A stretch of 64,000 nt of DNA, taken from NCBI RefSeq assembly GCF_003584105.1, contig NZ_QXFO01000028.1, forward strand, positions 1 through 64,000, read 5' to 3'. A model generated the notes under the pieces. That model was not told the origin of the DNA, did not search any database, and saw nothing but the letters and a program-made list of their open reading frames with translations. How positions within the stretch are numbered: the first letter of the stretch is position 1; the number at the start of each line of letters is the position of its first letter. Source of the DNA: Flagellimonas taeanensis (GTDB lineage Bacteria; Bacteroidota; Bacteroidia; Flavobacteriales; Flavobacteriaceae). Position numbers and translations under genes: made by a program. Below, piece by piece: positions 19,575 to 35,965 of the stretch.

Positions 19575-20406
19575 AGTGTTGAAATCCGGTTTTTTTGTGA
19601 CCATTCAAGATTTGGGGAGATTTGGATACCGTGACATCGGCGTCCCTATTTCGGGAGCCATGGATGTGTTGTCGGTAAAAAAGGCCAACCTTTTGCTGGA
19701 GAACGACCCCAATGCCGCGGTCATGGAGATTACCATGACGGGGCCTACGCTCCTATTTGATGAGCCTACCTATATCTGTCTGTCCGGGGCCCATATTGCT
19801 GCCACCCTGAACAACCAGCCCATAGAAAACTACCAAGTGGTGAAAGCCAGCAAAGGCGATATTCTGTCCTACGGCAGATTGGATGATGGTTTTAGAAGTT
19901 ATTTGGCCGTAAAGGGTGGTTTCCAGACGGATGTGGTCTTGGGGAGCCGTTCACAATTTGTTCCCGTGACCAAGAAAAAAAGGCTCAAGGACGGTGATGA
20001 GGTGAAATACGGCAAAATGCTTTCGTACAGTCCCATTATTTCTGAGGTCAAGATCGAGGAACACTTCCATAAGAACTATTTGGAAGTGTACAAGGGCCCT
20101 GAGTTTTCTATCCTGTCCGATGCCCAACTGACCGAAATTTTTACAAAGACGTTCACCGTTTCCAAGGAAAACAATAGGATGGCCTACCAACTTTCGGAGA
20201 CCATAACCGGGCATTCCCATTCCATGCTCACCTCAGGCACTTTGCCGGGCACGGTGCAGTTTACCCCAGCCGGAAAGCTGATCGTTCTGATGAAGGATGG
20301 CCAGACTACCGGAGGGTATCCACGCATCTTGCAACTTTCAGAAGATTCGATATGTACCTTGGCCCAGAAAAAGTTGGGGGATAAGCTTACCTTCAAGCTG
20401 GTTTAA
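19567..20406 (+). CDS. pxpC: 5-oxoprolinase subunit C (KipA/allophanate hydrolase subunit 2 family)
   Basis: 279 residues. N-terminal LKSGFFVTIQDLGRFGYRDIGVPISGAMD is the AHS2/biotin-dependent carboxyltransferase-like signature. GSRSQFVP and the C-terminal TPAGKLIVLMKDGQTTGGYPRI are also family hallmarks. It is the last gene of the permease-pxpABC operon. It ends 61 bp before the ilv leader peptide, with no terminator hairpin in between, so readthrough into the ilv leader region is possible. Confidence 0.94.
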   Translation: MLKVLKSGFFVTIQDLGRFGYRDIGVPISGAMDVLSVKKANLLLENDPNAAVMEITMTGPTLLFDEPTYICLSGAHIAATLNNQPIENYQVVKASKGDILSYGRLDDGFRSYLAVKGGFQTDVVLGSRSQFVPVTKKKRLKDGDEVKYGKMLSYSPIISEVKIEEHFHKNYLEVYKGPEFSILSDAQLTEIFTKTFTVSKENNRMAYQLSETITGHSHSMLTSGTLPGTVQFTPAGKLIVLMKDGQTTGGYPRILQLSEDSICTLAQKKLGDKLTFKLV

Positions 20407-20467
20407 AATTTGGGTTATTTTTTGTTCAAATGAAGGAATCGACCCATTTTTTTCGTAACATTGAAGC

Positions 20468-20524
20468 ATGAAAAGAAATAATTTCGTCATCAGCGTGGTC
20501 ATTATTGTTCCAGATCTGGAATGA
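20468..20524 (+). CDS. ilv leader peptide (attenuation peptide)
   Basis: An 18-codon frame, ATG to TGA, reading MKRNNFVISVVIIVPDLE. Eight of 18 residues are Val, Ile or Leu, six of them between codons 7 and 14 (V-I-S-V-V-I-I-V), with the Leu at codon 17. It lies in the spacer before ilvD, directly followed by mutually exclusive RNA hairpins ending in a T run. This is the arrangement of ribosome-mediated attenuators of branched-chain operons in enterobacteria: shortage of charged tRNA stalls the ribosome here and favours the antiterminator. I predict the peptide has no function beyond being translated. Too short for ordinary gene callers. The start is preceded by TTGAAGC, a weak ribosome-binding context typical of this phylum. 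Confidence 0.85.
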   Translation: MKRNNFVISVVIIVPDLE

Positions 20525-20559
20525 TACAGTCGTGCTGTTAATGAAAAGGGCCTGTATCA
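20508..20559 (+). promoter_or_regulatory. ilv attenuator: pause hairpin and antiterminator
   Basis: The last leader codons contain the palindrome TTCCAGATCTGGAA (20508-20521; 5-bp stem, GATC loop). Immediately after it, TGATACAG (20522-20529), which begins with the leader stop codon, is complementary to CTGTATCA (20552-20559), the upper part of the left terminator arm. Pairing of these blocks the terminator. A ribosome finishing the peptide covers 20522-20529 and lets the terminator form; a ribosome stalled at the Val/Ile codons leaves it free. The 8-bp pairing is seen directly; the regulatory consequence is inferred. Confidence 0.78.
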
Positions 20560-20585
20560 AAAGCTGATACAGGCCCTTTTTCTTT
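20544..20585 (+). terminator. ilv attenuator terminator
   Basis: AAAAGGGCCTGTATCA (20544-20559) pairs perfectly with TGATACAGGCCCTTTT (20565-20580): 16 bp with a 5-nt loop, continuing into TCTTT. It lies 195 bp upstream of ilvD and downstream of the leader peptide, so it is a premature (attenuator) terminator rather than the end of pxpC. Confidence 0.92.
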
Positions 20586-20717
20586 ACCGGTAAAAATAAT
20601 TGAATGTTGGATTTTAAAATGGTTTAAGTGGTTGATTTACAGTGATTAAAGTTTATTATGTTCCAAATGGATTTAAACAGCCCTTTTCTGTTAAAAATCT
20701 AAGGCTTTTTAAACATC

Positions 20718-20725
20718 TATCTTTG
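20718..20725 (+). promoter_or_regulatory. Possible second ilv promoter downstream of the attenuator
   Basis: TATCTTTG, a full TAnnTTTG match, 51 bp before the ilvD ATG and after the attenuator terminator. No good TTG-type -33 element is found at 17-23 nt. If active it would give attenuation-independent basal expression. Confidence 0.3.
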
Positions 20726-20775: not shown

Positions 20776-22452
20776 ATGGAATTGAACAAGTTTAGCAAGA
20801 ACGTGACCCAAGACCCTACGCTGCCGGCCGCCCAGGCCATGTTGCATGCCATAGGGCTTACAGACGAAGATTTACAAAAACCATTGATAGGGATTGCCAG
20901 TACGGGATATGAAGGCAATCCATGCAACATGCACCTCAACAAACTGGCGGTGGATGTGAAAAAAGGGGTAGAGTCCACCAACATGGTAGGACTCATCTTC
21001 AACACCATTGGGGTGAGTGATGGGATTTCCAATGGTACACCGGGGATGAGATATTCCCTTCCGTCAAGGGACATCATTGCGGATTCCATTGAAACCGTGA
21101 TGCAAGCCATGAGTTATGACGGTTTGGTGACCGTGGTGGGCTGTGATAAGAACATGCCTGGCGCTTTGATGGCCCAGTTACGTTTGAACAGGCCTTCGAT
21201 CTTGGTCTATGGAGGTACCATAGCCCCAGGGTGCCACAACAATAAAAAATTGGACATCATTTCCGCTTTTGAAGCCTACGGACAGCGGGTAGCGGGAACC
21301 ATTGATGAAACAGAATTCAAGGAAGTGATCCACAAGGCATGTCCGGGAGCTGGGGCCTGTGGCGGAATGTACACGGCCAATACCATGGCATCTGCCATTG
21401 AGGCCATGGGCATGTCCATGCCGTTCAATTCGTCCATTCCGGCAGAAAATGCTGCCAAAGGAGCTGATTGCGAGTCCGCGGGTTCTGCCCTGTTGCATTT
21501 GTTGAAAGAAGACATCAAACCAAGGGACATCGTGACCAAGAAATCCCTTGAGAATGCATTTCGATTGGTGACAGTCCTTGGGGGTTCCACCAACGCCGTG
21601 CTCCACTTTATGGCCATTGCGCATGCTGCCGAGGTAGATTTTACTTTGGAGGATGTGACCAGGATCAGCGATAACACCCCTTTGTTGGCCGATTTGAAAC
21701 CCAGCGGGAAATATGTAATGGAAGACCTGCACAAAGTGGGTGGGGTGCCAGCGGTCCTAAAATACATGTTGAAAAAAGGAATGCTTCACGGTGACTGTAT
21801 CACTGTCACCGGAAAAACATTGGCCGAAAACCTATTGGACGCTCCAGATTTGACGGAAGGACAGGATATCATCAGAACTTTGGAACAGCCCATCAAGGAA
21901 ACGGGCCATATCAGAATATTGTTCGGCAACTTGGCCTCCGAAGGTGCCGTGGCCAAAATCACCGGAAAGGAAGGATTGAGCTTTACAGGAACCGCAAGGG
22001 TCTTTAACAGTGAGACCGAAGTGAACCATGGCATCCACAATGGAAAAGTGCAGAAAGGTGATGTGGTGGTCATTCGTTACGAAGGACCCAAAGGTGCGCC
22101 CGGTATGCCTGAAATGCTAAAACCGACCTCGGCCATCATGGGAGCGGGTCTCGGAAAGGACGTGGCCCTGATCACCGATGGAAGGTTTTCTGGAGGATCG
22201 CACGGCTTTGTGGTGGGACACGTTTCCCCCGAAGCACAAGTTGGTGGCGGAATCGCATTGGTCAAGGATGGGGACACCATCACCATAGATGCCGTGAAGA
22301 ACACCATCAACATGGACATTTCAGATGAGGAGCTGGAAAAGCGAAGAAAAGAGTGGAAACAGCCAGAATTGAAAGTAAAATCAGGCAGTTTGTACAAATA
22401 TGCCAAGACGGTTTCATCGGCATCCAAAGGATGTGTAACGGATTTGATATAA
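20776..22452 (+). CDS. ilvD: Dihydroxy-acid dehydratase
   Basis: 558 residues. The Fe-S enzyme dehydrates 2,3-dihydroxy-isovalerate and -methylvalerate to the 2-oxo acids of valine and isoleucine. Cluster-binding Cys motifs are [17 protein letters not shown] and [15 protein letters not shown]. The C-terminal family motif [20 protein letters not shown] is intact. The ATG at 20776 is used; a TTG two codons earlier is possible but unneeded. First structural gene of ilvD-ilvB-methyltransferase-ilvN-ilvC-ilvA, under the attenuator at 20468-20585. A 48-bp gap separates it from ilvB. Confidence 0.97.
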
Positions 22453-22500: not shown

Positions 22501-24234
22501 ATGGAAACATTAAAAGCGGAAAAGAAGGACGCGAAAAAAAAGACAGCGATACGTATCACCGGAGCTGAGGCCATCATCCATTGTTTGTTGGCAGAGGGTG
22601 TGGATTTGATATATGGATACCCGGGAGGTGCCATCATGCCCGTGTATGACGAATTGTACAAGTTTCAGGATAAGCTGACCCATATCCTTACCCGACATGA
22701 GCAAGGGGCTACCCATGCTGCACAGGGGTATGCTCGCGTAAGTGGAAAAGTAGGTGTGGCCATGGCCACATCCGGTCCAGGTGCCACAAATTTGGTTACT
22801 GGTATCGCCGATGCCCAGATAGATTCCACCCCACTGGTGTGTATCACCGGACAGGTGGCAAGACATTTGTTGGGCTCCGATGCCTTTCAGGAAACGGACA
22901 TTGTGGGCATTTCTACCCCAGTGACCAAATGGAACTACCAAATTACCCGTGCAGAAGAAATCCCTGAGATCATGGCAAAGGCATTCTATATAGCTAGGTC
23001 AGGACGACCAGGTCCTGTGTTGGTGGACATTACCAAGAATGCCCAATTCGATGAATTGGATTTTGTGTATGAAAAATGCACAGGGGTGAGAAGCTACAAA
23101 CCAGCTCCTAAGCCGGACGTGAACGCCATTGAAAAAGCAGCGGAATTGATCAACAACGCCAAAAAGCCCTACATCGTTTTTGGACAAGGGATTATTTTGG
23201 GCGAGGCCGAAGAAGAACTCAAGGCATTGGTGGAAAAAGCGGGAATCCCAGCAGCTTGGACCATTTTGGGTCTTTCTGCCATGGACACCGACCATCCATT
23301 GAATGTGGGTATGGTGGGCATGCATGGAAATTATGGCCCCAATGTCCTGACCAATGAATGCGATGTCCTGGTTGCCATCGGAATGCGTTTTGACGATCGG
23401 GTGACCGGAAACCTTGCAACCTATGCCAAGCAGGCCAAAATCATCCATTTTGAGATAGACCCCGCCGAAGTGAACAAAAATGTGCCCGTGGACGTTGCAG
23501 TTTTGGGCAATGCCAAGCAAACCTTGGGATTCTTGTTGCCCTTGGTCAACAAGAATGAGCACAAGGAGTGGGTGGCCGAGTTTGAGAAAAAGCGACAAAT
23601 AGAATACGATACCGTAATCGACAAGGATATCTATCCCACTAAGCCGGGCCTTACCATGGGTGAGGTGATTGAACAGATCAATGTGGCTTCTGGGCATAAG
23701 GCGGTCATTGTTTCCGATGTGGGACAGCACCAGATGATTGCCTGTAGATACGCTAAATTCAAACAAACAAAGAGCAACATCACCTCTGGTGGCTTGGGAA
23801 CCATGGGATTTGCCCTTCCGGCGGCCATCGGTGCCAAAATGGGAGCCATGGATAGGGAAGTGGTGGCCATCATCGGTGATGGTGGGTACCAGATGACCAT
23901 TCAGGAGCTAGGGGTCATTTTCCAGCACAATTTGCCCGTAAAGATTGTGGTCCTCAACAACGATCACTTGGGTATGGTGCGCCAATGGCAGGAACTTTTC
24001 TTCGAAAGACGTTATGCCTCCACGGTAATGACCAATCCTGATTTTGTGAAAATAGCCGAAGGCTATCACATCAAGGCCAGAAGGGTAGTGGAGCGCTCCG
24101 ATTTGAAGGATGCTGTGGAAGAAATGATGGCCTCCAAAGATCCTTATTTCTTGGAAGTCAGGGTAGAGAAGGAAGATAACGTGTTCCCAATGGTTCCGAC
24201 GGGAGCTTCCATCTCCGATATCTTATTGAAGTAA
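22501..24234 (+). CDS. ilvB: Acetolactate synthase, large (catalytic) subunit
   Basis: 577 residues. The ThDP enzyme condenses two pyruvates to acetolactate, or pyruvate with 2-oxobutyrate to acetohydroxybutyrate, the first common step of valine and isoleucine synthesis. The activating Glu is in LTRHEQGATHAAQGYAR near residue 62. The C-terminal ThDP/Mg motif runs GDGGYQMTIQEL to NNDHLGMVRQWQ. FAD-domain phrases such as GMRFDDRVTGN are present. The N-terminus has a short Lys/Ala/Glu-rich extension before the family domain. Its regulatory subunit ilvN is not directly next: a methyltransferase gene lies between them, starting 2 nt after this stop. Confidence 0.97.
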   Translation: METLKAEKKDAKKKTAIRITGAEAIIHCLLAEGVDLIYGYPGGAIMPVYDELYKFQDKLTHILTRHEQGATHAAQGYARVSGKVGVAMATSGPGATNLVTGIADAQIDSTPLVCITGQVARHLLGSDAFQETDIVGISTPVTKWNYQITRAEEIPEIMAKAFYIARSGRPGPVLVDITKNAQFDELDFVYEKCTGVRSYKPAPKPDVNAIEKAAELINNAKKPYIVFGQGIILGEAEEELKALVEKAGIPAAWTILGLSAMDTDHPLNVGMVGMHGNYGPNVLTNECDVLVAIGMRFDDRVTGNLATYAKQAKIIHFEIDPAEVNKNVPVDVAVLGNAKQTLGFLLPLVNKNEHKEWVAEFEKKRQIEYDTVIDKDIYPTKPGLTMGEVIEQINVASGHKAVIVSDVGQHQMIACRYAKFKQTKSNITSGGLGTMGFALPAAIGAKMGAMDREVVAIIGDGGYQMTIQELGVIFQHNLPVKIVVLNNDHLGMVRQWQELFFERRYASTVMTNPDFVKIAEGYHIKARRVVERSDLKDAVEEMMASKDPYFLEVRVEKEDNVFPMVPTGASISDILLK

Positions 24235-24236
24235 GA

Positions 24237-24818
24237 ATGGACCAGGCCAATATTTTAAAAATGCCGTCAAGGTATTCGGCATTGCTTGAGAAGTCAAGGG
24301 AAATAGGCTTTGGCATGTCTTCTGACGTGTATATTGGTACCCTTTTGAAAACTTTGGTGGCCTCCAAACCCAATGGAAACTTTTTGGAGTTGGGCACGGG
24401 AATCGGATTGTCTTTGGCTTGGATGGTCGAAGGCATGGATGGAAATTCTAAAATTATCAGTGTCGATAACGATTCGGAACTCATTCAGATTGCCAATGCC
24501 TTTTTTCATGGTGAATCTAGGTTGGTATTGGTTTGTACCGATGGTGGAGAATGGCTGGAATCGTACAACGGAGCCGCTTTTGATTTGATTTTTGCAGATG
24601 CTTGGCCCGGAAAGTATAGTCATTTGGATAAAGCATTGGAATTGCTGAAAACGGGTGGGTTTTATGTGATTGATGATATGCTAAAACAACCCAATTGGCC
24701 ATCAGGACACGAAGAAAAAGCCAAGGAATTGGTTCGAATATTGGAAAAGAGAGAAGATATAACACTTACAAAGATGGATTGGTCCACTGGACTTATCGTT
24801 GCAGTTAAAATAAAATAG
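24237..24818 (+). CDS. Class I SAM-dependent methyltransferase inserted between ilvB and ilvN
   Basis: 193 residues, Rossmann methyltransferase of the O-methyltransferase/COMT-like type. SAM motif I is NFLELGTGIGLSLAW (about 48-62), the acidic ribose-binding residue is in IISVDNDSE, and motif IV is FDLIFADAWPGKY. GGFYVIDDMLKQPNW follows, as in small-molecule O-methyltransferases. It starts 2 nt after ilvB and ends 1 nt before ilvN, so it must be co-transcribed and probably coupled. No methylation step belongs to branched-chain synthesis, so its substrate is unknown; a linked 2-oxo or hydroxy acid is only a guess. The gene looks more AT-rich than its neighbours by eye, which could indicate a later insertion. 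Confidence 0.82.
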   Translation: MDQANILKMPSRYSALLEKSREIGFGMSSDVYIGTLLKTLVASKPNGNFLELGTGIGLSLAWMVEGMDGNSKIISVDNDSELIQIANAFFHGESRLVLVCTDGGEWLESYNGAAFDLIFADAWPGKYSHLDKALELLKTGGFYVIDDMLKQPNWPSGHEEKAKELVRILEKREDITLTKMDWSTGLIVAVKIK

Positions 24819-24819
24819 C

Positions 24820-25347
24820 ATGGAAAAACAATGGTTTACCATTTCGGTATACTCCGAAAATCATGTGGGATTGCTCAACAGGATATCAGGAATATTCTTG
24901 AAGAGACACATTAACATAGAAAGTTTAAACGTTTCAAAATCAGAGATTGAAGGCGTTTCAAAATTCACGATTGTAATTTATTCCACAGAAGACTGGGCCA
25001 TAAAAATCGTCAATCAGATTGAAAAGCAGGTGGAGGTCATCAAAGCGTATTACCACACCGATGATGAGACCATTTATCAAGAGTCGGCCTTGTTCAAAAT
25101 CGCATCGAACCTACTGTTCGATGAACGCCAGATCCAGAACATCATCAAAGATAGCAACTCCCAGATCGTCACAGTAAGCCGTGAGTTCTTCGTGCTGGCC
25201 AAAACAGGCCGTAGGCATGAAATCGATGAGATGCACGATGCGCTTGAACCTTATGGCATCATGCAGTTCGTTCGTTCGGGGCGCATTGCCGTAACAAAAG
25301 CGGCCATGCCGATATCCGAAATATTGACAGAATTTCAAGAAAACTAA
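24820..25347 (+). CDS. ilvN: Acetolactate synthase, small (regulatory) subunit
   Basis: 175 residues. An N-terminal ACT domain (about 4-80) has FTISVYSENHVGLLNRISGIFLKRHINIESL, the pattern that binds valine and activates the catalytic subunit. The C-terminal ALS_ss_C-like domain spans about 90-170. It gives valine feedback on IlvB. The start follows the methyltransferase stop by a single base. The Asn/Gly positions of the ACT valine site (H-V-G-L-L-N) are kept, so feedback sensitivity is expected. Confidence 0.95.
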   Translation: MEKQWFTISVYSENHVGLLNRISGIFLKRHINIESLNVSKSEIEGVSKFTIVIYSTEDWAIKIVNQIEKQVEVIKAYYHTDDETIYQESALFKIASNLLFDERQIQNIIKDSNSQIVTVSREFFVLAKTGRRHEIDEMHDALEPYGIMQFVRSGRIAVTKAAMPISEILTEFQEN

Positions 25348-25371
25348 ATAGCATAAAATCAAATCATAAAA

Positions 25372-26847
25372 ATGGCAAATTACTTTAGTACACTATCGCT
25401 TCGTGAGCAATTGACCCAATTGGGAAAATGTAGGTTTATGGACCCCAGCGAATTTGCTGATGGTGTTTCAGCTTTAAAAGGGAAGAAAATTGTGATCATA
25501 GGCTGTGGGGCCCAAGGGTTGAACCAAGGCCTCAATATGCGTGATTCCGGATTGGATGTATCGTATACCTTGAGGGAAGCCGCAATCAAGGAAAAAAGGC
25601 AATCCTTTAAAAATGCATCGGAGAACAACTTTGTTGTGGGCACCTACGAGGAATTGATCCCGACCGCCGACATGGTCATCAACCTGACCCCGGACAAGCA
25701 GCACACGAAAGTGGTAGGGGCTGTAATGCCGTTGATGAAAAAAGGAGCTACTTTGTCCTATTCCCACGGGTTCAATATCGTGGAGGAAGGGATGCAGGTC
25801 CGGGAGGATATCACTGTGATCATGGTGGCTCCAAAAAGTCCGGGTTCCGAAGTGCGCGAAGAGTACAAAAGAGGTTTCGGTGTACCAACCTTGATCGCCG
25901 TTCATCCTGAGAACGATCCTGAGGGAAAAGGGTTGGAGCAAGCCAAGGCCTATGCAGCGGCTACTGGCGGTGATAAGGCCGGGGTGTTGGAATCTTCATT
26001 CGTGGCCGAGGTAAAATCGGATTTGATGGGGGAGCAGACCATTCTTTGCGGTCTGTTGCAGACAGGTTCCATTCTTTCTTTCAACAAGATGGTTGAGAAA
26101 GGGGTTGATGCCGGATATGCCTCCAAATTGATACAATACGGATGGGAGACCATCACCGAAGGATTGAAACAAGGGGGCATCACCAATATGATGGACCGTT
26201 TGTCCAACCCTGCCAAGATAAAGGCCTTTGATTTGGCCGAAGAATTGAAAGTGATCATGAGACCCTTGTTCCAAAAGCACATGGACGACATCATGAGTGG
26301 TCATTTCTCCAAGACCATGATGGAAGATTGGGACAATGGCGATAAAAATCTATTGGACTGGCGTGCCGCTACTGGCGAAACTGCTTTCGAAAAGACTCCT
26401 GCCGGCAATGTGTCCATTTCCGAGCAAGAATACTACGACAACGGTGTGTTGATGGTTGCATTTGTAAAATCCGGGGTTGAATTGGCCTATGAGACCATGA
26501 CCGAATCAGGGATCATCGGCGAATCCGCTTACTACGAATCGCTTCACGAGACTCCATTGATCGCTAACACCATTGCTAGGAAGAAGTTGTTCGAGATGAA
26601 CCGTGTCATTTCTGATACCGCTGAGTATGGTTGCTACTTGTTTGACCATGCCTGTAAGCCTTTGTTGACGGATTTCATGAAAAAAGTGGAAACCGACGTG
26701 ATTGGCAAGAAGTTCGGAGAAGGAAAGGACAACGGTGTGGACAACATCAAACTTATCGCCGTCAACAAGGCCATCCGTACCCATGATGTGGAAGTAGTGG
26801 GAGCAAGACTCCGTGCATCCATGACAGCTATGAAGCCTATAGCATAA
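25372..26847 (+). CDS. ilvC: Ketol-acid reductoisomerase, class II (long form)
   Basis: 491 residues, matching the long class II form seen in enterobacteria and plants rather than the ~330-residue class I form. It isomerises and reduces acetolactate or acetohydroxybutyrate with NADPH and Mg. The Rossmann motif is [27 protein letters not shown]. Downstream catalytic residues lie in [28 protein letters not shown] and the duplicated C-terminal knotted domain ([20 protein letters not shown]). The Arg after the first beta strand region favours NADPH. It is 24 bp after ilvN and 15 bp before ilvA. Confidence 0.97.
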
Positions 26848-26862
26848 ATTGTATTTGGCCCC

Positions 26863-28131
26863 ATGAGCAAAGAAACTGTGGAAACGTATTTTCCGCAAAT
26901 AGCGGATATTCATCAAGCGGCAAAAATCATCGCCCAAGTGGCGGAAGAAACTCCTTTGCAGCAAAGTATCCGTTATTCCAAGGCTTATGGGGCCAATATA
27001 TTTCTTAAGCGGGAAGACCTTCATCGAGTCAGAAGCTATAAGATCCGTGGGGCCTATAACAAGATATCTTCTTTGTCCAAGGAACAATTGGACAGGGGCG
27101 TGGTCTGTGCCAGCGCGGGAAACCATGCCCAGGGTGTGGCATTTGCCTGCAGCCATTTGAAGGTAAAGGGTACCATTTACATGCCTGTTGTTACACCAAA
27201 ACAAAAAATCGACCAGACCAAGATGTTTGGCGGAGATTGGGTGAAAGTGGTTCTGGAAGGGGACACTTTTGACGATTCCAACAGGGCGGCCCAAAAATAT
27301 TGTGAACACGAAGAAAAGACCTTTGTCCATCCGTTTGATGATGAAAAGATCATTGAAGGGCAGGCAACAGTAGGCTTGGAAATCCTTGAACAAAGCGATG
27401 TTCCCATCGACTACCTTTTTGTGGCCGTGGGTGGTGGAGGCTTGGCCTCTGGACTGTGTGGTGCTTTTCAAGCGTTGTCGCCGAAGACCAAGATCATTGG
27501 AGTGGAACCTGAAGGGGCGCCTTCCATGAAAAGGTCCATTGCAGAAGGAAATTTGGTGCAGTTGGGAACCATTGACAAGTTTGTTGATGGAGCAGCCGTA
27601 CAACAAGTGGGACGATTGACCTATACCATTTGTAGGGACCATTTGTATAAAATGGAAACCGTGCCCGAAGGAAAGGTATGCCAGACCATTTTGGACCTAT
27701 ATAACCGTGATGCCATCGTAGTGGAACCCGCCGGGGCATTGACCATTGCTGCCCTTGATAATTTTGCGGAGGAAATCAAGGGAAAGAATGTGGTCTGTGT
27801 GGTGAGTGGTAGCAACAACGACATTACCCGAACAGCCGAGATCAAGGAGCGGGCATTGCTGTATGCCAATCTTAAGCACTATTTTATAGTGCGGTTTCCG
27901 CAGCGACCTGGGGCATTGAAGGAGTTTGTGGCCGATATTTTGGGACCGGATGATGACATCACCCATTTTGAATATTCCAAAAAGTCGAGCAGGGAAAATG
28001 CACCTGCAGTAGTGGGAATAGAACTGAAGTCTGCCGACGACCTGGAACCATTGATCCATCGTATGAAGGCCAATAACTTTTTTGGGGACTATCTCAACGA
28101 TAAGCCTGATTTGTTCCAATATTTGGTGTGA
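26863..28131 (+). CDS. ilvA: Threonine dehydratase (deaminase)
   Basis: 422 residues. The PLP enzyme converts threonine to 2-oxobutyrate, the isoleucine precursor. The Schiff-base Lys is in VRSYKIRGAYN near residue 58, the phosphate-binding Gly loop is VAVGGGGLASGL, and SAGNHAQGVAF is also present. It ends in one ACT-like domain (HYFIVRFPQRPGALKEF), as in the shorter IlvA class; E. coli IlvA has two. It closes the ilv operon. Its presence here while a citramalate-synthase-like gene sits in the leu operon suggests two routes to 2-oxobutyrate. No clear terminator follows within 160 bp. Confidence 0.94.
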   Translation: MSKETVETYFPQIADIHQAAKIIAQVAEETPLQQSIRYSKAYGANIFLKREDLHRVRSYKIRGAYNKISSLSKEQLDRGVVCASAGNHAQGVAFACSHLKVKGTIYMPVVTPKQKIDQTKMFGGDWVKVVLEGDTFDDSNRAAQKYCEHEEKTFVHPFDDEKIIEGQATVGLEILEQSDVPIDYLFVAVGGGGLASGLCGAFQALSPKTKIIGVEPEGAPSMKRSIAEGNLVQLGTIDKFVDGAAVQQVGRLTYTICRDHLYKMETVPEGKVCQTILDLYNRDAIVVEPAGALTIAALDNFAEEIKGKNVVCVVSGSNNDITRTAEIKERALLYANLKHYFIVRFPQRPGALKEFVADILGPDDDITHFEYSKKSSRENAPAVVGIELKSADDLEPLIHRMKANNFFGDYLNDKPDLFQYLV

Positions 28132-33471: not shown

Positions 33472-34881
33472 TTATGCAAATGCTTCTTCCATGAGTTCCC
33501 TTGGGTCGGTAACCTTCCCGGTCACTGCTGCAGCGGCTGCTACCAACGGACTTGCCAATAGGGTTCTGGCACCTGGGCCTTGTCTTCCTTCAAAGTTTCT
33601 GTTGGACGTGCTCACCGCATATTTTCCTGCGGGGATTTTATCGTCGTTCATGGCTAAACAAGCAGAACAACCGGGTTCCCTGAGTTCAAATCCAGCTTCT
33701 TGTAGGATGTCCAAGATTCCCTCTTCTTTGATGGCTTCTTCCACCCTGTGCGAACCGGGTACCAGCCAAGCGGTCACATTTTCCGCTTTCTTTCTTCCCT
33801 TGATGATGGAGGCAAATGCCCTGAAATCCTCGATCCTACCATTGGTGCAGCTTCCTAGGAACACAAAGTCGATGGGTTTGCCAATCATGGCATCCCCTTC
33901 GTGGAACGCCATATATTCCAATGATTTTTTGTAGGTGGCCACACCGCCTTCCACGGCTTCTGCGAGTGGAATATCGTTTTTGATGCCCATGCCCATACCC
34001 GGGTTGGTTCCGTAGGTAATCATGGGCTCTATTTCGGAAGCCTCAAAAGTAAGTTCCTTGTCAAAAACGGCATCACTGTCAGAATACAGGGTTTTCCAGT
34101 ATGCCATGGCGTTGTCCCAATCAGCTCCTTTGGGTGTGTATTCGCGACCTTTGATGTATTCGAAGGTCTTCTCATCGGGAGCGATCATACCGCCACGGGC
34201 ACCCATCTCGATACTGAGGTTGCAAACGGTCATACGGCCTTCCATGGACATGTTCTTGAACACATCTCCTGCATATTCCACAAAATAGCCGGTGGCACCG
34301 GAAGTGGTCAATTTGGAGATGATGAACAAAGCAACATCCTTGGGTGTAACGGCCTTGCTCAGGCTTCCGTTGATGTTGATGCGCATTTTCTTGGGCTTTG
34401 GCTGCATGATGCACTGCGTGGAAAGCACCATTTCCACCTCGCTGGTCCCTATTCCAAAGGCAATGGCACCAAAAGCTCCGTGTGTTGATGTGTGTGAGTC
34501 CCCGCACACGATGGTCGCGCCGGGAGCTGTGATTCCATTTTCCGGACCAATGACATGGACAATACCATTTTTCTCATGTCCAAGACCCCAATAAGGGATG
34601 TTGTGCGCTGCGGCATTTTCTTCCAAGGCCCTTAATTGGTTGGCGGATAGTTGGTCCTTTACGGGCAAATGTTGGTTCAGGGTAGGGGTGTTGTGATCGG
34701 CGGTCGCAAACGTCCGCTCGGGATACAGCACCTTGATGCCCCTGTTCTTCAATCCTAAAAAAGCCACGGGACTGGTGACCTCGTGCACCAAATGCCTGTC
34801 TATGAACAGCACATCGGGGCCATTTTCAATATGTTTTACCACATGGGAGTCCCACACTTTGTCAAATAGTGTCTTGCTCAT
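33472..34881 (-). CDS. leuC: 3-isopropylmalate dehydratase, large subunit
   Basis: 469 residues, aconitase superfamily with a 4Fe-4S cluster. Cluster Cys lie in FLGSCTNGR and [11 protein letters not shown]. Other landmarks are [27 protein letters not shown] and [16 protein letters not shown]. With LeuD it carries out the isomerase step in leucine synthesis and probably also in the citramalate route. First gene of the minus-strand leuC-leuD-cimA-leuB operon. The 259-bp region upstream is shared with the divergent sigma-factor gene; I found no leucine-rich leader peptide with a terminator there, in contrast to the ilv operon. Confidence 0.96.
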
Positions 34882-34999
34882 TGTATCAATCTAATTTTGT
34901 AAGCTTTCAAAGTTAAGGTTTGAATGCAAATCTATTTTTTAAAGCCCATTAAAATTACGATGTCCAACGGCTGTTTCAATGAAATATTCGAAATGTTAA

Positions 35000-35032
35000 C
35001 AAATGCATTGGTCCAGATCTAAATTATCACAA
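35000..35032 (-). promoter_or_regulatory. Candidate leuC promoter
   Basis: On the minus strand TTG (35030-35032), 22 nt, then TGCATTTG (35000-35007), one mismatch from TAnnTTTG. It predicts a 5' leader of about 115 nt. Weak evidence. Confidence 0.3.
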
Positions 35033-35096
35033 CTGAAGAGTTTGTTCCCCATTTTTAGGTATAATTTGGATTTATGTATAAAAAAGAGATCGATGC

Positions 35097-35123
35097 TGTC
35101 ACGTTTTATACCACTATCTTGTT
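35097..35123 (+). promoter_or_regulatory. ECF41-type promoter of the sigma-factor gene
   Basis: TGTCACG (35097-35103), 16 nt, TGTT (35120-35123). The motif reported for group ECF41 is TGTCACA-N16-CGTC. The predicted transcription start is about 10 nt before the ATG at 35141. An inverted repeat (ACGTTTTAT at 35101-35109 and ATAAAACGT at 35131-35139) overlaps it and runs up to the start codon. Confidence 0.72.
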
Positions 35124-35140
35124 TTAAGATATAAAACGTT

Positions 35141-35965
35141 ATGGAAAACATTCATAAAACCTTGACGACCTATGCCTATAACATCTCAGGCTCGATGGAG
35201 GATGCCAAGGACGTGGTTCAGGATGTCATTGAAAAGCATATAGGGGCCGATAGATCACATATTGAGGATGAACGGAATTATTTGATCAAATCTGTTGTCA
35301 ACCATGCCATAAACCTGAAAAAAAGAAAATCCTATAAGTCCGTATATGGAGAATGGCTTCCTGACCCGGTAGACCTGAATCAGGCCGATAGCCATGTTAT
35401 AAAAGAACAAACAGCTTCATATTCCCTTTTGGTGCTGATGGAGAAACTGAACGCATTGGAACGCGCCGTATTTATCTTAAAAGAAGGTTTTGCCTATAAG
35501 CACAAAGAGATTGCGGATGTATTGGATATCCAGACCGATCATTCGAGGCAGTTGTTCCTTCGGGCAAAGAAATCACTGAAGAAGACGAGTTATATTGAAA
35601 AAAGAACAGAACCAGAGATTTTGAAAGCCTATATAAACGCCATTTCGAATGCGGATCTGGACAAACTCGAATCATTGTTGGTAGAAGATATTGAGCTCAT
35701 GGCCGACGGGGGCAGTACGGTTAAGGTCATCACAGGAAGTCTGGTCGGGGCCAACAGTACAGCAAAGCTGCTCCAAAATGTCTATGGACTGTTCTTGCAG
35801 GACAAAAAATACTTTATCACCGAGATCAATCATCAACCTGCTGTCGTCTTCCATGAAAATGATAAGGTCTATAACTGCCAAATCTTGGTTTGCGAGAACC
35901 ATCGCATTGCCAGCCTGTACTCCATTGTGGATCCCCAAAAATTAAAACTGCTAAAAGTCCGGTGA
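35141..35965 (+). CDS. ECF41-type sigma factor with fused SnoaL-like regulatory domain
   Basis: 274 residues. Sigma region 2 is at 10-60 with the DAKDVVQDVI core (21-30). A linker has WLPDP (72-76), corresponding to the WLPEP signature of ECF41/SigJ-like factors. Region 4 (about 95-150) is the -35-reading helix-turn-helix. A C-terminal SnoaL/NTF2-like domain (about 155-270) includes the DGG motif (189-191) of ECF41. In this group no anti-sigma factor is used; the C-terminal domain itself controls activity, both positively and negatively. The matching promoter motif lies in front of this gene and in front of the next (azoR), so autoregulation and direct control of the neighbour are expected. 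No ligand or stress signal can be read from sequence. Confidence 0.85.
   Translation: MENIHKTLTTYAYNISGSMEDAKDVVQDVIEKHIGADRSHIEDERNYLIKSVVNHAINLKKRKSYKSVYGEWLPDPVDLNQADSHVIKEQTASYSLLVLMEKLNALERAVFILKEGFAYKHKEIADVLDIQTDHSRQLFLRAKKSLKKTSYIEKRTEPEILKAYINAISNADLDKLESLLVEDIELMADGGSTVKVITGSLVGANSTAKLLQNVYGLFLQDKKYFITEINHQPAVVFHENDKVYNCQILVCENHRIASLYSIVDPQKLKLLKVR

Follow-up and report, generated by a model that had tools for sequence, protein, structure and literature searches.

A candidate Val/Ile-reading leader-peptide attenuator upstream of the ilv operon in a marine flavobacterium, with serial copies in related genomes

What does a tiny Val/Ile-rich reading frame, together with three competing RNA folds, do just 5′ of the ilv (isoleucine/valine synthesis) genes of a marine flavobacterium? 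Enterobacterial ilv, his and trp operons carry leader-peptide attenuators, in which the peptide holds the amino acids of the pathway and the RNA adopts mutually exclusive folds. A first-pass annotation of a 64,000-nucleotide stretch of Flagellimonas taeanensis DNA (the window) had claimed such an attenuator for positions 20468–20585, with a frame, a palindrome, two antiterminator arms and a 16-bp terminator, and direct reading found every one of these parts at the positions given for it. The leader peptide frame MKRNNFVISVVIIVPDLE (20468–20524; this and the following features lie on the plus strand) has its ATG at 20468–20470, 18 codons and a TGA at 20522–20524; eight of its 18 residues are V, I or L, as annotated, one of the eight being Leu. 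The palindrome TTCCAGATCTGGAA occupies 20508–20521. The antiterminator 5′ arm TGATACAG (20522–20529) has the leader stop codon as its first bases, and its 3′ arm CTGTATCA (20552–20559) is shared with the 5′ arm of the terminator. This intrinsic terminator (20544–20585) consists of a perfect 16-bp stem (20544–20559/20565–20580) with a loop at 20560–20564, followed by TCTTT as a U-rich 3′ end. It lies between the leader and the first gene of the operon, ilvD (20776–22452; TIGR00110, 753.6 bits against a cut-off of 618.15), and the operon continues from 22501 to 28131 with ilvB (22501–24234), an open reading frame (24237–24818), ilvN (24820–25347), ilvC (25372–26847) and ilvA (26863–28131). The frame between ilvB and ilvN encodes 193 amino acids and has no NCBIfam match at E ≤ 1e-5.

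The whole element (20468–20585) folds at −46.6 kcal/mol (z = −7.0), a value equalled by none of 200 shuffles, and the antiterminator state of 20505–20562 at −16.6 (z = −2.9), equalled by 2 of 200. A generic promoter and terminator scan, which is of E. coli type and uninformative here, did not list the terminator at 20544–20585, in our view because most of the U run is taken up by the perfect stem, which leaves a short tail.

We compared the region with its counterparts in relatives, starting from the best 80 of 584 matches in an IlvD search; with the window these gave 81 loci. Upstream of ilvD, many of the 80 loci carry an element like that of the window (type A), and others a sister element (type B) whose terminator differs, commonly reading GCCTTCC...GGAAGGC, and whose leader is another one, for instance MKKQVINIISIIRIVIISRSQGML. 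By lists made partly by eye, type A is present in 32 of the 81 loci, type B in 23, both in 8 and either in 47. A covariance model built from 30 type A sequences (R1) finds one strong site in its own genome, 5′ of ilvD, the next best other site having an E value of 1.5e-3. Among 299 Flavobacteriaceae genomes, R1 reaches at least 56 bits in 51, the own genome included; the other 248 have no match at that score, and some of these carry the sister element. At E ≤ 0.001 it matches in 121 of the 299, the weak matches among these including opposite strands and, in our view, plain terminators. G229, the only listed genome of the same genus, has no R1 match at E ≤ 0.001. Apart from the window we fetched 29 strong R1 loci, and every one of them has ilvD 3′ of the element in the same orientation, at 166–305 nt in 24 and at about 1050 nt in five with ilvE between; the ilvE family assignment was made in loci related to these five. 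The type B model (R2) was built from 19 elements, with L008, L012–L015, L030, L046 and L067 excluded at the outset and the pattern passing over sites in L020, L031, L070, L074 and L081. It matches 91 of the 299 genomes at E ≤ 1e-5, and ilvD is within reach in 29 of 30 fetched loci; in the 30th, L144, the sequence ends soon after the element. In a phylum sample of 296 genomes at E ≤ 1e-7, R1 was detected in five, own included, all Flavobacteriaceae, and R2 in nine, one of which belongs to another family. The leader frame, antiterminator and terminator thus recur before ilvD or ilvE–ilvD across Flavobacteriaceae, which is the conservation expected under the annotation. In the own genome, we also inspected an R2 match at C26 (L169), in which no leader was evident on reading.

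We next asked which residues the leader holds. From the matches, 80 of 87 entered the type A set (seven weak, opposite-strand or type B matches were dropped, including L039 at 48 bits), of which 72 were distinct, and 51 'solo' leaders were chosen by the absence of an upstream terminator pattern, although by eye at least L016, L054, L092, L124 and L131 among them are second leaders of a series. Residues were counted in the 33 of these 51 that have exactly 18 codons, window included, a choice that itself explains why frame 0 is free of stops. I or V stands at codon 11 in 30 of the 33, at codon 13 in 31 and at codon 14 in 29; Pro stands at codon 15 in 25, and the stop is TGA in all 33. Together the 33 leaders hold 216 I and V codons, compared with 81 ± 8 after base shuffling and a maximum of 103 in 500 shuffles. 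Leu, tested as a sensed residue, appears in at most five of the 33 leaders at any of codons 7–14, and we therefore conclude that the peptide reads Val and Ile: of the proposed Val/Ile/Leu leader, the Val and Ile part is borne out and the Leu part is not conserved. By composition and conservation, then, this is a short frame with codons for the amino acids made by the operon. GTC accounts for 61% of 137 Val codons in type A leaders (51 loci) as against 11% in 80 ilvD genes, and for 14% of the Val codons of the window's ilv genes. Slow decoding or pairing constraints may account for this preference; we cannot say whether either does.

We then examined whether the antiterminator is maintained. 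Its pairing surpasses 95% of shuffles in 53 of 59 type A elements (59 of the 72 could be placed and 13 were left out) and in 34 of 52 type B elements (52 of 61 distinct ones). In 36 of 45 leaders, the stop codon and the arm share their first base. Compensatory changes, which the annotation had looked to in the 20522–20529/20552–20559 helix, did not appear: within type A none of the eight pairs is changed on both sides, and in 30 sequences the changes are one-sided, mostly to G–U. True partners in type B pair at −10.6, swapped partners at −9.3 and shuffled ones at −5.9, true partners being barely better than swapped because the arms are alike. The type B helix has another sequence than that of type A, which indicates replacement rather than pairwise compensation. 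The antiterminator nonetheless excludes the terminator, and the claim that the two are mutually exclusive is supported by the fold z-scores, by pairing relative to shuffles and by conservation.

The comparison also revealed a structure that the first-pass annotation lacks, a covarying protector hairpin in which codons 8–15 pair with the region 3′ of the stop. In the window it is predicted at 20491–20537, with an inner helix at 20503–20512/20517–20526 and an outer helix at 20491–20498/20530–20537; its tip is the palindrome described above, and the predicted fold ties up UGAUA of the antiterminator arm. Between codon 6 and the terminator the RNA tends towards a single long hairpin (z < −2 in 31 of 33 leaders). 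Outer strands pair with their own partners at −8.8 and with swapped ones at −5.8, and none of 5,000 permutations was as low, either for the full set or for a 23-sequence subset without ten close relatives; taken singly, no more than 18 of 33 true outer partners rank in the top 10% of swaps. Two-sided changes are seen in 16 of 23 protector pairs (shuffles 12.1 ± 1.4; slid controls 11–14), and 75% of alignment cells are paired compared with 31–53% in slid controls, with the eight outer pairs (5–60 to 12–53) unpaired in 14–21 of 33 rows of the fixed alignment. RNAalifold, unaided, returned nine pairs of the inner helix, five with two-sided changes, and their 3′ side holds UGAU of the antiterminator arm. 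In the 30-sequence set, four of the five tip pairs (TTCC/GGAA) are changed on both sides. This number of two-sided pairs, all in the tip, does not exceed the shuffles, 264 of 500 reaching it, whereas 38 cells are changed compared with 12.5 in shuffles, and for changed cells and covariation score none of 500 shuffles was as high. The 18 nt 5′ of the antiterminator arm beat 95% of shuffles in 38 of 59 elements, and adjacent control stretches were near zero. Sequence comparison and folding thus describe a protector that overlaps the regulatory codons and cannot coexist with the antiterminator, and with it the classical set of protector, antiterminator and terminator is complete.

To place the 5′ end of the leader transcript, we looked for promoter boxes in the 51 leaders. 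A TAnnNTTG box has its last base 4 nt upstream of the start codon in 21 and 5 nt upstream in 12, and the remaining seven matches are spread over six distances, none with more than two. The combination of TAnnNTTG and ATG is not rare by itself, with three in the window and 2.9 expected. In the window, TAACATTG (20456–20463) is the probable −7 box of a leader promoter, P1, with its G 4 nt before the leader ATG. For Flavobacterium psychrophilum, the part of the published study available to us gives a sigma-A box at −12 to −5 and states that leaderless mRNAs are only 5.5% of those examined (PMC9723704). Box spacing and this offset together put the transcript start at the leader start codon or one nucleotide upstream of it, so that the leader mRNA is probably leaderless, starting at the A of the ATG at 20468. 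The locus would then offer a candidate leaderless leader peptide in bacteria that use few Shine–Dalgarno sites. Leaderless trpL in Sinorhizobium and leaderless Cys leaders in mycobacteria are known. As in those systems, the attenuator mRNA here would start at the leader AUG, in another phylum and for other amino acids.

We conclude that the element is in all likelihood (a probability of about 0.88) a classical four-segment, ribosome-mediated transcription attenuator that senses charged Val- and Ile-tRNA. The comparative evidence upholds the annotation in this respect: frame, arm and terminator are conserved, the protector covaries, and the element is associated with ilvD. From the arrangement we infer the leaderless start, ribosome stalling and the regulation itself. 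RNA polymerase would start at P1, with the A of the leader AUG as the probable first nucleotide, and the ribosome would load on the leaderless 5′ end. When Val- or Ile-tRNA is scarce, it would stall within codons 7–14 and hold the 5′ side of the protector open. The arm UGAUACAG, which begins 15 nt past the first base of codon 14, would then be free to pair with CUGUAUCA, blocking the terminator and allowing readthrough into ilvD–ilvB–ilvN–ilvC–ilvA. With the usual ribosome footprint, a ribosome on codon 14 or earlier leaves the arm free and one on the stop codon covers it. If the tRNAs are charged, the ribosome would go on to the stop codon; since the arm opens with these three bases, it would be covered and the 16-bp terminator would form. 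Without translation of the leader, part of the arm would be held in the protector, and the terminator would likewise form. This layout resembles the enterobacterial ilv, his and trp attenuators in its leader of pathway residues, its mutually exclusive protector, antiterminator and terminator, and its site before a biosynthetic operon. It differs from them in being probably leaderless, in an antiterminator arm that starts at the leader stop codon itself, in a second promoter-like array that follows it, and in the two or three copies in series found in other lineages.

That second array bears on how much of the operon the attenuator controls. A yTGn5CAr motif lies 86–88 nt upstream of TAnnTTnR in 52 of the 81 loci (window and best 80 of 584 IlvD matches), against a background mean of about 0.2 per offset; the highest other offset, 104, scored 8. 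The window's copies are TTGATTTACAG (20632–20642) and TATCTTTG (20718–20725), the latter being the probable −7 box of a promoter directly 5′ of ilvD. We read this conserved array between terminator and ilvD as a putative, regulated second promoter, P2. The array accompanies 35 of the 47 attenuator-bearing loci and 17 of the 34 others, by attenuator lists that are pattern-based with L012–L015, L020, L034 and L039 added by eye; in L096 and L099 it seems, by eye, to stand before ilvE. Since it lies 3′ of the terminator, the attenuator in the window can act only on P1 transcripts, and transcripts from P2 would escape it. The annotated control of the ilv operon therefore probably does not extend to all ilv transcription. 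A stronger version grants that the attenuator is genuine and lets P2 supply most ilv transcription, under a DNA-binding regulator bound to the array upstream of the −7 box; this leaves the attenuator a minor, starvation-induced share, or a short RNA or peptide with its main action elsewhere. The version gains from the conserved spacing and from the loci that have the array without an attenuator. Set against it, P2 is itself putative, with another offset that also scored, and in other lineages attenuators stand directly before the first gene, about 30 nt from ilvD in L196 and L198 and from ilvE in L181 and L182, leaving no room for P2. The element can thus be an operon's own switch, and we regard P2-dominated transcription as unlikely.

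We further observed that attenuators of relatives can follow one another. At least 28 of the 299 family genomes carry an R2 match and then a separate R1 match within 1 kb on the same strand, at least 27 of them within 155 nt, and such a series is present in at least 22 of the 51 genomes that R1 matches strongly. Labels in this count are assigned by model, with R1 partners scoring from 85 down to 37 bits; the two elements in G030 overlap by 2 nt, and in G287 the downstream one scores higher with R2. In several serial loci inspected by eye, the second leader begins a few tens of nucleotides past the first terminator. L181 and L182 have three Ile/Val leaders in a row before ilvE, L186 has two, and L202, from another family of the phylum, has two in succession upstream of ilvE, with an ilvD-like frame further on. 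L022 is another locus with two leaders. The window carries a single attenuator. In Aquimarina (L071, L074 and L080), two consecutive type B-like attenuators lie upstream of ilvD; the distal attenuator of L074 has its stop, TAA, inside the antiterminator arm (GTAAAGGG/CCCTTTAC).

The same design appears with other codons. The own genome has a His leader, MSNNNVHHHHFYTCPQAR (HHHH), with a terminator directly before hisG; it matches R2 at 44.1 bits (L167 1501–1623, equal to contig C27 191151–191273, minus strand). Poly-Asn leaders (NNNNFNNP) of similar layout are present once each in 25 of the 299 Flavobacteriaceae genomes (L204–L228; also L171–L179 and L190). In 24 of these 25 loci, gatA lies downstream on the same strand, and the remaining stretch has no gatA match. 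GatA was named by a TIGR00132 match in L171, to a partial sequence and below cut-off, and the own genome gave two gatA matches, both below cut-off. The poly-Asn leader is possibly an Asn-tRNA sensor that controls the Asp-tRNA(Asn) amidotransferase. Codon identity that tracks the downstream gene, His before hisG and Asn before gatA, argues against a ligand- or tRNA-binding RNA such as a riboswitch or T-box with an incidental frame. A structured leader and terminator before an amino-acid operon would suit such an RNA, but conservation at the ilv element falls on the Val/Ile codons and none of the Rfam covariance models (T-box, other leader families) reached its gathering threshold anywhere in the window, which makes this reading very improbable. 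Hardly credible at all is that the hairpin merely terminates the upstream pxp genes and the short frame arose by chance: a pxpC-like gene (match below family cut-offs) does end at 20406 on the same strand, but the element accompanies ilvD or ilvE–ilvD, is intact in L047 and L048 although the next upstream gene there is divergent, and conserves frame composition, stop position and protector.

On balance we favour, with some reservation, the view that a single modular attenuator design, often leaderless and composed of regulatory codons, a protector, an antiterminator arm placed at the stop codon and a terminator, serves several tRNA species in Flavobacteriaceae and some relatives and is stacked in two or three copies before ilv genes. 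If so, stacked copies would confront RNA polymerase with repeated tests of Val/Ile-tRNA charging, giving a steeper or multi-input switch, and the poly-Asn version would respond to Asn-tRNA and thereby, via gatA, set the production of that tRNA. The logic of serial attenuators, whether steepness or response to more than one amino acid, would be directly measurable.

A Bacteroidetes trp leader RNA exists in Rfam. In F. psychrophilum, of the same family as the window's host, strong clues have been reported for leader peptide attenuation before amino-acid biosynthesis operons, which are not specified, and the same paper describes structured 5′ elements in other genera, pheA and hisG being among the genes they precede (PMC9723704); the section available to us has no structural model, and the accessible main text has no word beginning 'ilv'. 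A map of B. thetaiotaomicron contains sORFs reminiscent of attenuating leaders (PMC7366714), PMC4833913 is also relevant to attenuation in Bacteroidetes or Flavobacteria, and an ilvD motif has been described in Veillonella (PMC8632094), each as far as the accessible portions go. Attenuation before flavobacterial amino-acid operons had thus already been suggested (PMC9723704). To this the present comparison would add the full classical set with an apparently leaderless start, a stop-codon arm and serial copies in relatives, that is, a covariation-supported model for a branched-chain operon in a phylum for which the open-licence papers searched, in their accessible parts, only hint at attenuation. 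The ilvBNC attenuator of Corynebacterium glutamicum likewise combines a branched-chain operon, a leader peptide and a three-hairpin model, in another phylum, and is likened here by its description in the available text (PMC11857589). That of Staphylococcus aureus also serves branched-chain synthesis, with a peptide that is Leu-rich there and Val/Ile-rich here (PMC5794164, in part). Two short ORFs likewise share one leader in the tandem attenuators of Salmonella mgtCBR, whereas the flavobacterial repeats are of the same amino-acid kind, number up to three and precede ilv genes (PMC3641672, accessible portion). Beyond mgtCBR and mentions of the phrase, the open-licence literature, as far as accessible, yielded no tandem ribosome-mediated attenuators, and, judged by title, no work related to an Asn/gatA leader.

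Finally, we looked at the leu genes of the window. No R1 or R2 element was found there among the own-genome matches, and on reading, 34860–35160 upstream of leuC held no branched-chain leader. Upstream of leuC on the minus strand (34908–34967), a TTGGACATC motif stands 52 nt before a TAACTTTG box and resembles part of the P2 array of ilvD, a pair of motifs that suggests a shared regulator.
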